Positions 7,241 to 29,579 of a DNA stretch of 34,114 nt are shown here, piece after piece (the first letter of the stretch is position 1; every line of letters starts with the position of its first letter). This stretch comes from a virus. The notes under the pieces were generated by a model. It searched no databases and was not told where the DNA came from. It saw only the letters and a program-made list of their open reading frames with translations. A program made the translations under genes and the position numbers. The stretch spans positions 1 through 34,114 of the IMG/VR virus record IMGVR_UViG_3300037847_002005. One strand, given 5' to 3'.

Positions 7241-7762
7241 TCATAAGACTAAATTTAATTTTCTAAGTACTTGTTTTACTGGATTAAAATCAGGAAGCTG
7301 AGAGTAATTGTCCATAAGGTAATTCACACCAGTCTGCATAATAAGTTTCATGCGAGGGTTACTGTCGTTTAGTTTGTGGCAGTACATGACTAGCTCCAAC
7401 ATATCTGCCATCTTTAACCTATTGAGTTCACGGTCGGTAAGCACAAAATCTATATCAAGATCCTTCATTACTTTTTGTTCTGCTTTTTTAAATACTTTTT
7501 GCACATCAGGATATGACCATTTTGCTGTCGCAGGAATATCACCAAGAATTATTTCTGGTACATCATGGTAAAGGGCTGATAGTAATAAATTCTTAGAACA
7601 ATTATCCCACAACTGGTCAAGTAAAACTACAACTGCATATGAATGAGCACCCACTGTTTGCCTTAATCCGCCAAGTGGTACAGTGTGATATCTATTAATA
7701 AATTGTGCGTCATAAATAGTTTCTAACTTTTCGTAGTTAATTTGGTTGCTCGCTGTGTCCAC
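7241..7762 (-). CDS. HD-domain nucleotide phosphohydrolase (YfbR/DatZ-like)
   Basis: This 173-residue protein starts at a GTG (7762) with GGGGG 7 bases upstream and overlaps the polymerase stop by 26 bases. It has the full HD set: His40 in G-A-H-S-Y, His66-Asp67 in L-Y-H-D-V-P-E, Glu70, Asp75 and Asp120 in K-M-A-D-M-L-E. The length and residue positions match bacterial YfbR 5'-deoxynucleotidase and the phage dATPase DatZ, which remove dNMPs or a dNTP from the pool. Next to DNA polymerase and the modification block, it may clear the normal competitor nucleotide or recycle monophosphates. No PurZ or MazZ gene is present, so a 2-aminoadenine pathway is not supported. The substrate is unproven. 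Confidence 0.8.
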   Translation of the reverse strand: MDTASNQINYEKLETIYDAQFINRYHTVPLGGLRQTVGAHSYAVVVLLDQLWDNCSKNLLLSALYHDVPEIILGDIPATAKWSYPDVQKVFKKAEQKVMKDLDIDFVLTDRELNRLKMADMLELVMYCHKLNDSNPRMKLIMQTGVNYLMDNYSQLPDFNPVKQVLRKLNLVL

Positions 7763-20638: not shown

Positions 20639-20947
20639 TTATTTATAAATGTCAACTGTTAAAGGATAATACTCTTCATCAAGCCTATCCCATTTAAGTA
20701 TTTTTGCTTTACCTAAATTGTTTGACATGGCAACAGCACAAGAGATGCCAATAATCACAGGATCCCCAGATAATAGCAAATAGTCTTCATTGTTAAAATT
20801 ACGCAACAAGCGATTTATTCTCCTAGCCGTTGGCTGTGAGGATAAGGCAACTTGTTCCTTTGCAGGAATGAGGATTTGCAGATCGCCAAACTCAGAAGCC
20901 TTCGTAATATCTCTTCCAGGAACTTCTTGCGTAATAAATACAGTCAC
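20639..20947 (-). CDS. Conserved small protein, first gene of the replication operon
   Basis: This 102-residue protein starts at a GTG (20947) with AGGAG upstream. It has the pattern G-D-L-Q-I-L-I-P (20-27) and L-L-S-G-D-P-V-I-I-G-I-S-C-A-V-A, then K-I-L-K-W-D-R and Y-Y-P-L-T-V-D-I, which I recall from many marine and T7-like phages without an assigned role. The Pro/Gly loops between strands suggest a compact alpha/beta fold. It is the first gene after the structured leader 20974-21078, so that leader, if regulatory, would act on this start and the whole operon. Confidence 0.74.
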   Translation of the reverse strand: MTVFITQEVPGRDITKASEFGDLQILIPAKEQVALSSQPTARRINRLLRNFNNEDYLLLSGDPVIIGISCAVAMSNNLGKAKILKWDRLDEEYYPLTVDIYK

Positions 20948-20973
20948 ACTTTCTCCTATGCTGTTGTTAGTCT

Positions 20974-21078
20974 TGCTAGTGTTTAACCCTTGTCGCTACC
21001 TCACACCCTTTGCCTAGGAGCTTGGGGCTCTTGGTAGCCAAGTGAACGGTTTGCATGTCACGCTACTAAACACTAGCA
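20974..21078 (-). ncRNA. Candidate structured 5' leader RNA of the replication operon
   Basis: The 307-base gap 20948-21254 holds a 105-base module closed by a perfect 12-bp stem (TGCTAGTGTTTA at 21078-21067 on the minus strand with TAAACACTAGCA at 20985-20974). Inside are two more hairpins, CTTGG-CTA-CCAAG (21030-21042) and GAGC-CCCAA-GCTC (21019-21031, overlapping by 2 bases). GCTAC in the first hairpin could instead pair with either of two GTAGC copies (21062-21066 and 20995-20999). A promoter (21085-21112) puts the transcript start right at the first base of the closing stem. A closed multi-branch RNA with alternative pairing at the head of an operon looks like a riboswitch or protein-binding leader. 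I do not recognise the class. Confidence 0.6.
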
Positions 21079-21084
21079 TTAATA

Positions 21085-21112
21085 AATATATACTTTTATA
21101 TATAGTAGTAAA
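21085..21112 (-). promoter_or_regulatory. Promoter of the replication operon
   Basis: The minus strand has TTTACT (21107-21112), a 16-base spacer and TATATT (21085-21090). The predicted start, about 7 bases after the -10, falls at 21078, the first base of the closing stem of the leader RNA. Overlapping TATATA sequences make the exact -10 uncertain. Confidence 0.5.
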
Positions 21113-21130
21113 ACACAATTTAGTCTAAAT

Positions 21131-21181
21131 GATAAATCAGATATTTAAATATCAGATATCGATATATTTTCCGTCCCGCGA
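21131..21181 (-). repeat. Repeated regulatory element, copy B
   Basis: Read on the minus strand this copy has TCGCG-GG-ACGGAAA, then ATATATC and GATATC, then AATATCTGATTT, matching copy A at 1948-2000 over about 50 bases with small gaps. It contains a perfect 14-bp palindrome, GATATTTAAATATC. It lies between the divergent promoters of the replication operon and the SNF2 gene. Its CGCG end faces the SNF2 promoter, the same relation as copy A to terS. Confidence 0.6.
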
Positions 21182-21207
21182 ATAATATCGTGCTGAGCAA
21201 AAATTAC

Positions 21208-21235
21208 TTAAAATCCAAAACACTTTGTATATAAT
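21208..21235 (+). promoter_or_regulatory. Promoter of the SNF2 gene
   Basis: The plus strand has TTAAAA (21208-21213), a 16-base spacer and a perfect TATAAT (21230-21235). TATATAATAAAG (21228-21239) is identical to the terS promoter core. The predicted start near 21242 lies after the first in-frame ATG (21225), which supports initiation at 21255 with a leader of only about 13 bases. Confidence 0.6.
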
Positions 21236-21254
21236 AAAGTTAGAAAGTTTTGTA

Positions 21255-22691
21255 ATGAAATATAAGTTTAAATTACAACCTTATGAGCATCAGTTAACAG
21301 CTCTAAGGAAAGGGTGGAACTTGGAAGAGTTTGCTTTTTTCATGGATATGGGAACTGGTAAGTCTAAGGTTTTGATAGATAATTTTAGTGTGTTGTATGA
21401 CAGAGGACATATAACTGGTGTTTTGATTATTGCACCAAAAGGTGTATATAGAAACTGGTCTCGCAATGAGATACCAACTCATATGCCAGAACATGTGCTT
21501 ACTGATATTTGTGTATGGCAACCTAATCACACACAAAAGTTTTTACAGACTTGGAAAAATTTATTTGTACCCAACGATAATTTAAAAATATTCCTAATGA
21601 ATATAGAAGCCTTTAGCACACGCAAAGGTGTAGAAGTGGCTGAAAAGTTTTTGTTAGCTCATACGGTACTAATGGCTATAGATGAAAGTACTACGATAAA
21701 AAGTAAAAAAGCAAAACGAACAAAGTCTATAGTGAAACTTGGAAAGAGTGCCAAGTTCCGTAGGATTATGACTGGCAGTCCTATAACAAAAAGTCCTATG
21801 GATTTATATACACAATGTGAGTTTTTAAACCCAACTCTATTAGGTCATAAAAGTTTCTATAGTTTCCAGTATGAGTATGCGATTATAAAGCGTCGTAATT
21901 TAGGCTCATATAGTTTTAATCAAATAGTAGGATACAAAAATTTAAAGGAGCTAAATGGTTTGTTAGATAATTTTAGTTTTAGAGTGCGTAAACAAGATTG
22001 TTTGGATTTACCTGATAAAGTATACACCAAGCGTATTGTTGAGTTGAGTGAACCACAACGTAAAATTTATGATGATATTAAAAAGATAGCACTTGGTATA
22101 TGTGAGGAGGGTACTGTTACTCCTACCACAATATTGACACAATTACTTCGGCTACAACAAGTATGTTCTGGTCATGTAAAGTTAGATGATGGTACTGTAA
22201 AAAACTTTCCATCAACAAAACTAAATGAGTTAGAAGTCATGCTTGATGAAATAGATGGCAAAGTAATTATATGGGCGAACTTTACTATGGACATTGTACT
22301 AATAGAACAACTCATAGGTAGAATGTATGGTGTAGAAAGTGTAGTTAGTTATTATGGTGAAACAACAACTGATCAACGTGATTATGCTGTGAGTGCTTTC
22401 CAAAACCCAGATAGTCCAGTAAGGTTTTTTGTAGGACAACCTAGAACTGGTGGTTATGGATTAACACTTACTCAAGCATCTACCGTTATATATTATAGTA
22501 ACAGTTATGATTTAGAAGTACGTTTACAAAGTGAAGACAGAGCACATCGTATTGGACAAGTGAATAAAGTAACTTATATTGATATTATTGCTGACAAAAC
22601 TGTGGATGAAAAAGTGCTACAAGCCCTCAGAAACAAAATTAATCTTGCTAGTGTAGTTTTACAAGAAAATGTAACAGATTGGATAGTTTGA
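21255..22691 (+). CDS. SNF2-family DNA-dependent ATPase/helicase
   Basis: The only clear plus-strand gene. I place the start at ATG 21255 (MKYKFKLQPYEHQ), since 21225 precedes the predicted transcript start; AGAAAG lies 8 bases upstream. The 478-residue protein has the SF2 Q-like opening, Walker A D-M-G-T-G-K-S (31-37), motif II D-E-S-T (143-146), motif III T-G-S-P (173-176), motif V G-G-Y-G-L-T-L-T and motif VI Q-S-E-D-R-A-H-R-I-G-Q. This is the SNF2 subgroup common in phages. It is a minimal ATPase core with no added domains. It may remodel protein-DNA complexes, restart forks or strip host proteins. Its reverse orientation and separate promoter suggest expression timing different from its neighbours. 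Confidence 0.93.
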   Translation: MKYKFKLQPYEHQLTALRKGWNLEEFAFFMDMGTGKSKVLIDNFSVLYDRGHITGVLIIAPKGVYRNWSRNEIPTHMPEHVLTDICVWQPNHTQKFLQTWKNLFVPNDNLKIFLMNIEAFSTRKGVEVAEKFLLAHTVLMAIDESTTIKSKKAKRTKSIVKLGKSAKFRRIMTGSPITKSPMDLYTQCEFLNPTLLGHKSFYSFQYEYAIIKRRNLGSYSFNQIVGYKNLKELNGLLDNFSFRVRKQDCLDLPDKVYTKRIVELSEPQRKIYDDIKKIALGICEEGTVTPTTILTQLLRLQQVCSGHVKLDDGTVKNFPSTKLNELEVMLDEIDGKVIIWANFTMDIVLIEQLIGRMYGVESVVSYYGETTTDQRDYAVSAFQNPDSPVRFFVGQPRTGGYGLTLTQASTVIYYSNSYDLEVRLQSEDRAHRIGQVNKVTYIDIIADKTVDEKVLQALRNKINLASVVLQENVTDWIV

Positions 22692-27002: not shown

Positions 27003-29579
27003 TTATTGTACTACTCTTTGTTTAAAATCAAATTGTCTATATCTATTAAAAAAGTCCTTTATATCTTGATCACTAAATTGTTTATTTGGTAGTTGACTTT
27101 TTAATAAACCTCTAAACTCATCACCATACTTAACTAAAAATTCATCAGCCTTATTCACGTCTCCTTTAAATATGAGTTGTGCTCGTGCTACTTGATTTGG
27201 ACCAATGTTAATACCAGCATCTTCATCAGTTCCTTTTCTAGCAAAGTAAAAGCCCTCAACAGTTTCAGGTTTTGCGTTTTTTAATTTATTAATAGTTTCT
27301 GGTCTAACTAATGGATTAGCCTTACGATACTCATCTATTCTAGCTGTCATAGCTACATATCTATCTTCTGGCTTCATAGCTTTAAGTGCTGGATCTTTCA
27401 TCGCCTCATTAATTATTTGAAGTTCTTTTGTAGAACGCACTGAAGCCTGATTAAATATTTCTTCCATAATTTTAATACCTTCAGGTGTTGTAGATAGTTG
27501 TAATCCAGCTTCTTTAATTAAGTCAACCTCTGACTGGTTCAAGTTTCCAGGGAAGTTAGATGCAAAAGTTACAGCAAATTGAGCACCTACTTTATTTAAT
27601 GTTTCACCAACAGCTATATTACCACCAAGGAATTGTTTTAGAGTATCTTCACCTATTACTTCTTTCATTTTAGCATTGAGAGTTGGAGAGGCTTGTAACA
27701 ATTTACCTATAGTTAATCTTGCATTAGCAAACGTACCAGTTCTAAATCCTTTTGTGCCTTCTTTAAATATTGAAGCAAAACTTGCTATTCTTTCATTATT
27801 TGTTGCTGACTCTCTAGTATCAGTGATTAACTTATCAATTGATTTAGCAAATACTTTATCCATTGATTCTGATGGGTTGTACTGTGTTGTCAAAGTTGAG
27901 CTTTTAGTAATAAAGTCATCAAACGCATCTTCTTTATAGTTATTAACTAAACGATCAATCTCAACTTCATCTAATCCAGCTTGTGCTAATCGTGTACGCA
28001 TTAAGTTAGCTTTATTGTTCACAACATTTTCAAACTCACTTGTATCAAACAATGTTCTACTTAATATCTGTACTCGTTGTTGTGCATCTTTATATTTATT
28101 ACTGTTTTTATTTGTGGCAGGATCTCTAAGTATTGCTTGAGCTTCTAATAATTTGTCTATGTTTTGTTGTAACTCTGGAGCAACTGCTTTTGTTAAAGTT
28201 GTTTTATCTGTCGTATTATTTAAGTCTACTGCAACAAATCCAGTTTTTTCAGTCCCATAAACTGCCATGTTTTTGCCTTCAGTTCCTTGAAGTATATGTC
28301 TTGTATTATTTGTTTTATTAACAACTACGAGACCAACGCCATCTACGTTTACAACTTCTGTTTCAGCTCTTCCTTTTACTTTTTCTATAGCTGACCCAGT
28401 TCCTTTATTGATAAAATAGATTGAACCACCTGGACCTTCTTTCACTACTACATTTTCTGCTGTAAGTTGTTGCCCAGTTTTACCTCCTACAGTTTGAAAT
28501 TTAAATTCGCCAGTTACTGGATTTTTTGAATTAGCATCATATAAATAAGTTTTGCCTGACGCATCATCTTTGAAACTTTTAATGTTTGGTGCTTGATACA
28601 TCACTTTGATGGAAGATCCTCCCTCAGCATCTGGAGTTATTCTACCTACGAAACCTTCTCTTTCAATAATCTTTCCTGGACCTCGATCAACAACTTTTAC
28701 TTCACCAGTTCTTGCGTTTTGTGCTATAACATCACCAAACTCGTTTTTACTAAACGTAAATCCAGTTTTAGCTAATTCTGTTAGCACTGGTTTAATCATT
28801 TCAGCTTTAGCTTTACCTTTAGCTTTTACTTCTTCTTTGTAAACATCTCCTGCTTTTTCTAAACGACTTTCTTTTTCTTTAGCTTTTAATAATTGTAATT
28901 GTATCAAAGGATCAAGTTGCTTTTGTGTTTCAGGTGATAAAGCGGCATCTAATAAAGTAGGACTACGACCTATTACTTGACCAATCCTTGCTAAAGTTAA
29001 TCCAGGAAGAATTTTACTATACTCATCATACGCACTCGGTCTAGAAGTATATTGTTCTTGTAATGTAGCCAATGGCGTAACTTTTGGTGCATAGCTTTCA
29101 GCCAACCCTAATAAACCAACTGGTGTTGATGCTAATTTTTGTAAAGCATTTATATTTACAGTAGGTGGATTACCAGTTGCTAACATGACAGGACTTTCAC
29201 CACTTTGCATTCTAGCCATCGCTTCCATTTGTTGTGATTCATCAATGTTTGGTGCTACTGGTGTTTCTGTATCTAAATCAGATATACCACCAGTAGATTC
29301 TATTACAGTCATTAAAGGTTGCACTATAGTTAATACAGACTCTGGTGTTTTGTTAGCATCTTCTTCACCAACTAATTGTGCAAGTTCTGTACGTCTTTGT
29401 TCTACACTAGCTTCATCACCACGGATTGCATCCATTATTTCTTTTGGGTTATCAGCCTCATCAATATTTTGAAACAATGTTTCAATGCCCGAGGTTACAT
29501 TAGTAAGTGCCTGAACTGATTCGTTATCTTCTAATCCTGATGTGATTCCGCCCATTGGCTCGTTTGTTAACATTTGCAT
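27003..29579 (-). CDS. Internal virion protein (858 residues)
   Basis: The start overlaps the stop of the 322-residue gene as TAATG; a second Met follows two codons later. The N-terminus L-T-N-E-P-M-G-G resembles the L-N-E-P motifs of the next protein. Residues 38-75 (DAIRGDEASVEQRRTELAQL then V-G-E-E-D-A-N-K-T-P-E) match a segment I recall from marine podovirus structural proteins. The middle (about 330-520) is rich in G, T, V and K with beta-like repeats (EFKFQTVGGKTGQQL), and the rest is helical. Probably part of the internal core or ejection machinery. No enzyme motif seen. Confidence 0.68.
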   Translation of the reverse strand: MQMLTNEPMGGITSGLEDNESVQALTNVTSGIETLFQNIDEADNPKEIMDAIRGDEASVEQRRTELAQLVGEEDANKTPESVLTIVQPLMTVIESTGGISDLDTETPVAPNIDESQQMEAMARMQSGESPVMLATGNPPTVNINALQKLASTPVGLLGLAESYAPKVTPLATLQEQYTSRPSAYDEYSKILPGLTLARIGQVIGRSPTLLDAALSPETQKQLDPLIQLQLLKAKEKESRLEKAGDVYKEEVKAKGKAKAEMIKPVLTELAKTGFTFSKNEFGDVIAQNARTGEVKVVDRGPGKIIEREGFVGRITPDAEGGSSIKVMYQAPNIKSFKDDASGKTYLYDANSKNPVTGEFKFQTVGGKTGQQLTAENVVVKEGPGGSIYFINKGTGSAIEKVKGRAETEVVNVDGVGLVVVNKTNNTRHILQGTEGKNMAVYGTEKTGFVAVDLNNTTDKTTLTKAVAPELQQNIDKLLEAQAILRDPATNKNSNKYKDAQQRVQILSRTLFDTSEFENVVNNKANLMRTRLAQAGLDEVEIDRLVNNYKEDAFDDFITKSSTLTTQYNPSESMDKVFAKSIDKLITDTRESATNNERIASFASIFKEGTKGFRTGTFANARLTIGKLLQASPTLNAKMKEVIGEDTLKQFLGGNIAVGETLNKVGAQFAVTFASNFPGNLNQSEVDLIKEAGLQLSTTPEGIKIMEEIFNQASVRSTKELQIINEAMKDPALKAMKPEDRYVAMTARIDEYRKANPLVRPETINKLKNAKPETVEGFYFARKGTDEDAGINIGPNQVARAQLIFKGDVNKADEFLVKYGDEFRGLLKSQLPNKQFSDQDIKDFFNRYRQFDFKQRVVQ

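Follow-up and report, generated by a model that had tools for sequence, protein, structure and literature searches.

A covarying hairpin with exchangeable contents, predicted to form the 5' end of a phage replication-operon mRNA

The window, meaning the whole stretch of 34,114 nucleotides analyzed here (IMG/VR record IMGVR_UViG_3300037847_002005), is a 34-kb phage fragment. An operon on its minus strand, starting at 20947, encodes Pam3_gp32-, gp33- and gp34-like proteins, an archaeo-eukaryotic-type primase, a UvrD-like helicase, a family A DNA polymerase, a 5-hmdU DNA kinase-like protein and a TET-associated glycosyltransferase-like protein, and therefore serves the replication and modification of DNA. 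From 21225 onward an SNF2-type helicase gene is read in the opposite direction, across a divergent intergenic region. According to the original prediction the operon begins with a structured leader RNA, and the following features were located there.

20639-20947, minus strand: first gene of the operon, Pam3_gp32-like protein (PF23992), 102 aa
20945-20960, minus strand: start-codon hairpin CAUA-GGAGAAAG-UGUG, Shine-Dalgarno sequence in the loop and GTG start in the 3' arm
20974-20985, minus strand: closing stem, 3' arm TAAACACTAGCA, from fold and covariation
20986-20998, minus strand: module A, 3' part (TAGCGACAAGGGT), from alignments and consensus
20999-21034, minus strand: module B, 36 nt, CCAAGAGCCCCAAGCTCCTAGGCAAAGGGTGTGAGG, nested in module A in the window
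21035-21066, minus strand: module A, 5' part (GTAGCGTGACATGCAAACCGTTCACTTGGCTA), a small hairpin and the 5' side of a second helix, from fold and consensus
21067-21078, minus strand: closing stem, 5' arm TGCTAGTGTTTA, from fold and covariation; predicted transcript 5' end near 21078
21085-21112, minus strand: sigma-70-like promoter-like site, -35 TTTACT (21112-21107), 16 nt, -10 TATATT (21090-21085), overlapping TATATATAAAAG
21093-21104, minus strand: conserved motif TATATATAAAAG, overlapping the promoter-like site; 27 of 28 distinct leaders keep it at a constant spacing from the hairpin

The closing stem was found as predicted on the minus strand, with all 12 pairs perfect and 81 nt enclosed. 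It precedes the GTG start at 20947, as had been claimed, with a gap of 26 bases rather than 27. The closing stem, the second helix and the small hairpin of module A meet in a three-way junction. The minus strand of 20970-21082 (113 nt) folds with a minimum free energy of -38.3 kcal/mol (z = -3.0), a value equalled by 1 of 200 shuffles. The stem by itself is unremarkable, since 0.48 perfect 12-bp inverted repeats within 200 nt are expected per window by chance; the single sequence is weak evidence, and it is the comparison of related sequences that makes the leader real. A sigma-70-like promoter predicted at 21112-21085, with 9 of 12 matches in an AT-rich region, is suggestive only. Transcription from this site would begin near 21078, the first base of the stem, in agreement with the start predicted originally. 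The motif TATATATAAAAG occurs once in the window. No intrinsic terminator or attenuator (a GC stem followed by a T run) was found in 20900-21300, and comparison with known phages gave no DNA match to the leader region beyond one weak, partial one. A small leader ORF (ATG at the stem base, about 20 codons) was rejected, having neither a ribosome site nor conservation. Between the divergent genes lie ATATC-rich repeats (GATATTTAAATATCAGATATCGATATATTTTCCGTCCCGCGAA, 21136-21190) that are conserved in clade 1 of the relatives described below, with ATATC content also in clade 2; a replication origin or operator is possible.

Relatives were collected from IMG/VR with helicase and gp32 queries (80 + 29 loci), by flank patterns (11 + 16 loci) and by gp32 alignment (80 more), many of these being the same contigs. 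All are uncultured contigs. Clade 1 has helicase and gp32 sequences each 87-99% identical and provided 10 distinct leaders, while gp32 in clade 2 is about 70% identical. The slot from the promoter motif to the start codon was aligned by hand from the leaders, and the arms were picked by eye and trimmed before counting. One contig, IMGVR_UViG_3300030116_002175 (L003/L082), was left out as evidence because its two leader copies, 80 bp apart, look like an unresolved scaffold join. The copies (about 27057-27363) differ from each other, one having an altered module B, and flank a short unread gap; the double leader is probably a scaffold join of two strain variants.

In clade 1, 98.2% of cells of the closing stem are paired over 12 pair positions in the 10 distinct leaders, and both sides have changed at 8 of the 12 positions. 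The only two unpaired cells are both in the window, whose stem lacks the two lowest pairs. The covariation score was 0.50 versus 0.22 in shuffles, none of 500 shuffles reached the observed pairing or score, and the signal was lost when the register was slid. The same slot in clade 2 holds a 7-bp hairpin of unrelated sequence with a six-base loop that begins with AAU in all 15 sequences. This hairpin is 98.1% paired with 23 double-change cells (15 distinct sequences), and its covariation score was 0.77 versus 0.35 in shuffles (0 of 500). The clade 2 hairpin is an independent confirmation that a hairpin, and not a sequence, is kept in the slot; in both clades pairing is selected whatever the sequence, as in stabilizing stem-loops. 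The original prediction was to fail if the stem showed no compensatory changes in homologous phages or was absent from close relatives. The stem passes on both counts, which strongly supports a structured RNA leader to the operon.

The strand on which selection acts was apparent from the imperfect pairs. A G·U pair on one strand is A·C on the other. All 28 wobble pairs (7 in clade 1 and 21 in clade 2, counted in trimmed arms and not all independent events) read G·U on the transcribed strand with no A·C among them, an asymmetry that argues for selection on the RNA of that strand. An antisense-RNA pair of the copA/RNAI type was rejected, the imperfect pairs being all A·C on the other strand. Comparison of the substitutions thus shows that selection maintains the pairs of the closing stem in RNA of the transcribed strand.

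The ends of the hairpin are fixed whereas its interior is not. The 5' base follows TATATATAAAAG by 12-15 nt in all but one of 28 distinct leaders, and the span varies from 16 to 114 nt. Nine of the 10 clade 1 leaders have the 3' end exactly 12 nt ahead of the GAAAG in the ribosome site; in the window subclade this spacing is 20 nt. Within these ends the interior is bare or simple (L084, L086, L094), holds module A without B (L085), holds B directly inside the closing stem (L089, L090, L093) or holds B nested in A (the window, L087, L088, L091). Where present, the modules are well conserved, loop sequences included. Leaders L007 (A+B) and L011 (B) share a 165-bp intergenic flank that is 100% identical and a gene segment 98.2% identical, yet differ by all of module A, which occupies both sides of the helix. 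A second pair, L014 and L016, has 100% identity in the flank and 97.3% in the gene. Despite these near-identical flanks the leaders of either pair are only 50-56% identical. Leader forms are also interleaved in the helicase-gene tree, where a six-member group (100/99 support) includes both A+B and B, and L013 (A) pairs with L010 (simple form) with 99/98 support. The aligned leaders show by comparison that the stem ends keep a constant position with respect to the promoter motif and, in clade 1, for the most part also to the ribosome site, and that stem sequence and contents are free to change, with structured modules coming and going inside.

Single loop insertions could suffice for the changes from bare to A, from A to A+B and from bare to B. 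To get from B to A+B, either two insertions must be coordinated or recombination in the flanks must exchange the hairpin as a unit, and such exchange is favored over insertions as the source of the mosaic. Modules A and B were not found outside the slot in IMG/VR or in any of the loci read, and occupy one place per genome. Pattern scans of viral_contigs returned the slot and one chance coding match (L119), and those of genome_contigs returned four scattered matches, of which L121, read in detail, lies within a protein-coding frame. The L121 match (7620-7644) consists of 25 bases equal to module A (GTGACATGCAAACCGTTCACTTGGC) within an 83-aa ORF of a gammaproteobacterial MAG, the ORF resembling a RiPP leader peptide of the nitrile-hydratase type. 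The match stops at the edges of the 25-mer, and its chance occurrence in the collection is estimated at about 5e-4. A literature search on nested phage palindromes found nothing relevant.

A second hairpin surrounds the start of the first gene, with the Shine-Dalgarno sequence in a loop of 7-9 nt and the start codon in the 3' arm across the set. The form in the window is extended to GCAUA-GGAGAAAG-UGUGA. The arms covary as CAUA/UAUG, CAUA/UGUG, GCGG/CCGU, ACGG/CCGU, UACGG/CCGUG, UAACG/CGUUG, CAUGU/ACAUG and CAUGU/GCAUG. Over these 8 distinct arm combinations 32 of 32 inner pairs are formed, compared with 16.6 when arms are reshuffled (P 0.00045); the arms are out of register in the MAFFT alignment and pairs were counted by script. 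The hairpin is more stable than nearly all other starts in the window. It is kept across several phage clades, a finding independent of the closing stem, and is absent in L105-type relatives and in DSL-LC04. Both the Shine-Dalgarno sequence and the start codon are thus contained in one small hairpin of conserved pairing, and comparison of the arms shows that its pairs, too, are maintained by selection on RNA of the transcribed strand.

Contigs L045 and L046 have no hairpin in the slot; their sisters L047-L049 have a larger structure that departs from the spacing rule, the best closing stem of which would start upstream of the expected transcript start. This compound leader contains the inverted repeats TTAATAAT...ATTATTAA and GTTGCAGGCG...CGCCTTACAAC, as well as TCCTAGG, which is also present in module B. 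The more distant relatives L053, L096 and L105 have neither the motif nor a recognizable 5' hairpin.

The product of the first gene was modeled with AlphaFold (pLDDT 91). The best Foldseek matches were SAVED/CARF proteins (E 0.006-0.1). The top 45 VIA matches (Z 8.2 to 5.7) were all CARF/SAVED-fold or ring-nuclease proteins, one of them being a viral SAVED ring nuclease (9r8s), and unrelated folds appeared from Z 5.5 down. The model therefore resembles a CARF/SAVED-like cyclic-nucleotide sensor fold with middling Z, and an SGDP sequence with a helix after it resembles the CARF glycine motif. No sequence match was obtained among solved structures or defence models. The family is present in at least 86 phage records; a function in counter-defence or nucleotide binding, widespread among phages, is conceivable.

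The leader had originally been taken for a switchable riboswitch, in which the interior senses a small molecule and GCTAC switches between two GTAGC partners. In its A+B form the leader is a compact RNA of several helices whose loops are conserved, and the repeats claimed are present in the window (GTAGC at 21066-21062 and 20999-20995, GCTAC at 21038-21034). The alternative pairing exists only in the window subclade, however, other leaders having GCTAAC or no such segment, and mutually exclusive structures were not conserved among homologous leaders. Nor was a conserved ligand-binding core found. The interior is absent in L084, L086 and L094 and replaced in L085, L089, L090 and L093, with flanks 97-100% identical in the closest pairs of phages; a ligand-sensing core is thus contradicted because the interior is missing where promoter, ribosome site and gene are nearly identical. 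Rfam gave no match at the gathering score, and the best hit up to E 10 was an unrelated family at E 1.2, in keeping with the earlier remark that the leader is unlike known riboswitch classes. If there were an expression platform, it would have to be the start-codon hairpin, a separate element with no link to the interior, and a terminator is lacking. Sensing of a small molecule is therefore very improbable, and on the sequences of L084, L086 and L094 it is largely refuted already. A perfect stem with alternative pairings in a single sequence is, as a caution, weak evidence for a riboswitch. We consider it equally improbable that the element is a DNA-level palindrome (an origin, cruciform or protein site) whose pairing is kept by template-switch correction and not by selection on RNA. 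Imperfect palindromes can be corrected mutationally, and the divergent intergenic region around the slot has further conserved repeats rich in ATATC, but a strand-symmetric DNA process would leave A·C as well as G·U pairs, and the element sits at a fixed distance downstream of the promoter motif. Only slightly less remote is the idea that small mobile palindromic elements insert into hairpin loops, for which the leader is a mere landing site. Such elements would fit two observations: B is found both within A and immediately within the closing stem, and every form can be derived from a simpler one by a single loop insertion. The restriction of A and B to this slot speaks against them, recombination in the shared flanks accounts for the mosaic equally well, and the covariation of the closing stem would be left unexplained.

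A protein-binding leader, in which a phage or host protein recognizes the hairpin or hairpins, is doubtful but deserves more weight. One possibility is autorepression of the operon by the first gene product acting at the start-codon hairpin, another is recognition of the 5' hairpin by RNA polymerase for antitermination. The similarity of the start-codon hairpin to phage translational operators, the AAU at the loop start in 15 of 15 clade 2 sequences and the loop sequences kept in modules A and B are consistent with recognition. No single recognition site is conserved, however, as the bare, A, B and A+B forms of clade 1 share no loop or interior, and the modeled gp32-like protein resembles CARF/SAVED domains and not a known RNA-binding repressor. 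The conserved loops of A and B and the AAU of clade 2 leave room, on sequence grounds, for bound factors, and the conservation of A and B, loops included, is more than a pure passenger would require. An unlikely, though not negligible, reading is that the closing stem is a docking frame in which related phages swap or nest modules by recombination, the modules binding different host or phage factors.

The simplest reading is a 5'-terminal stem-loop, because the ends are fixed and the interior is free. We moderately favor a 5'-terminal mRNA stem-loop acting as a stabilizer of the ompA type, together with a second hairpin in which the ribosome-binding site is in the loop and the start codon is paired. 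The leader would then probably be a cap protecting or tuning the message and not a small-molecule sensor. Transcription is predicted to start at the stem or within a few bases of it, the paired 5' end may block 5'-end-dependent decay as an ompA-type stem-loop does, so that the long early transcript would survive, and the start-codon hairpin may set or gate translation of the first gene. The closing stem would insulate modules A and B, which would act as interchangeable cassettes with a minor or lineage-specific role. The leaders that depart from the pattern (L045-L049, L053, L096 and L105) and the conserved loops of A and B count against this reading.

Terminal stem-loops are known to stabilize mRNA and impede RppH (PMC3997798), the ompA and papA types having been described by Emory 1992 and Bouvet and Belasco 1992, as cited in that article. 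Like these, the present stem is located upstream of the ribosome site at the (here predicted) mRNA 5' end, and pairing but not sequence is conserved; unlike them, it is a phage leader in an operon, and its interior grows to more than 80 nt with structured swappable modules. Start-codon and Shine-Dalgarno helices control the T4 genes e, soc and 49 (PMC3014915). The start-codon hairpin is like these and that of I-TevI (PMC3014915) in having the start codon in a short helix, with an effect on initiation expected. It differs by displaying the Shine-Dalgarno sequence in its loop and by having a helix that covaries across several clades of phages. The nearest published arrangement found is that of the SAS/ESAS of cluster K mycobacteriophages, which are present in many copies per genome and in which the ESAS arms do not support RNA pairing (PMC3203893). 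Both have an inverted repeat just upstream of a ribosome-binding motif with complementary ends around AGGAG, whereas the leader shows strong RNA covariation and is single-copy, with one module A/B slot per genome and one promoter-motif copy in the window. The glutamine riboswitch of marine phage Melnitz (PMC9004378) is likewise a structured leader RNA of a marine phage, yet it belongs to a known class, while the leader described here has no Rfam family and no conserved aptamer core.

Were the docking frame true, it would mean lineage-specific control of the replication operon and a cassette system for leader RNAs. The locus is a clear natural case in which the existence and position of a terminal mRNA hairpin are kept and its sequence and contents are not. 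With its natural variants, what 5' hairpins do and how structured RNAs are assembled by nesting can be tested directly.
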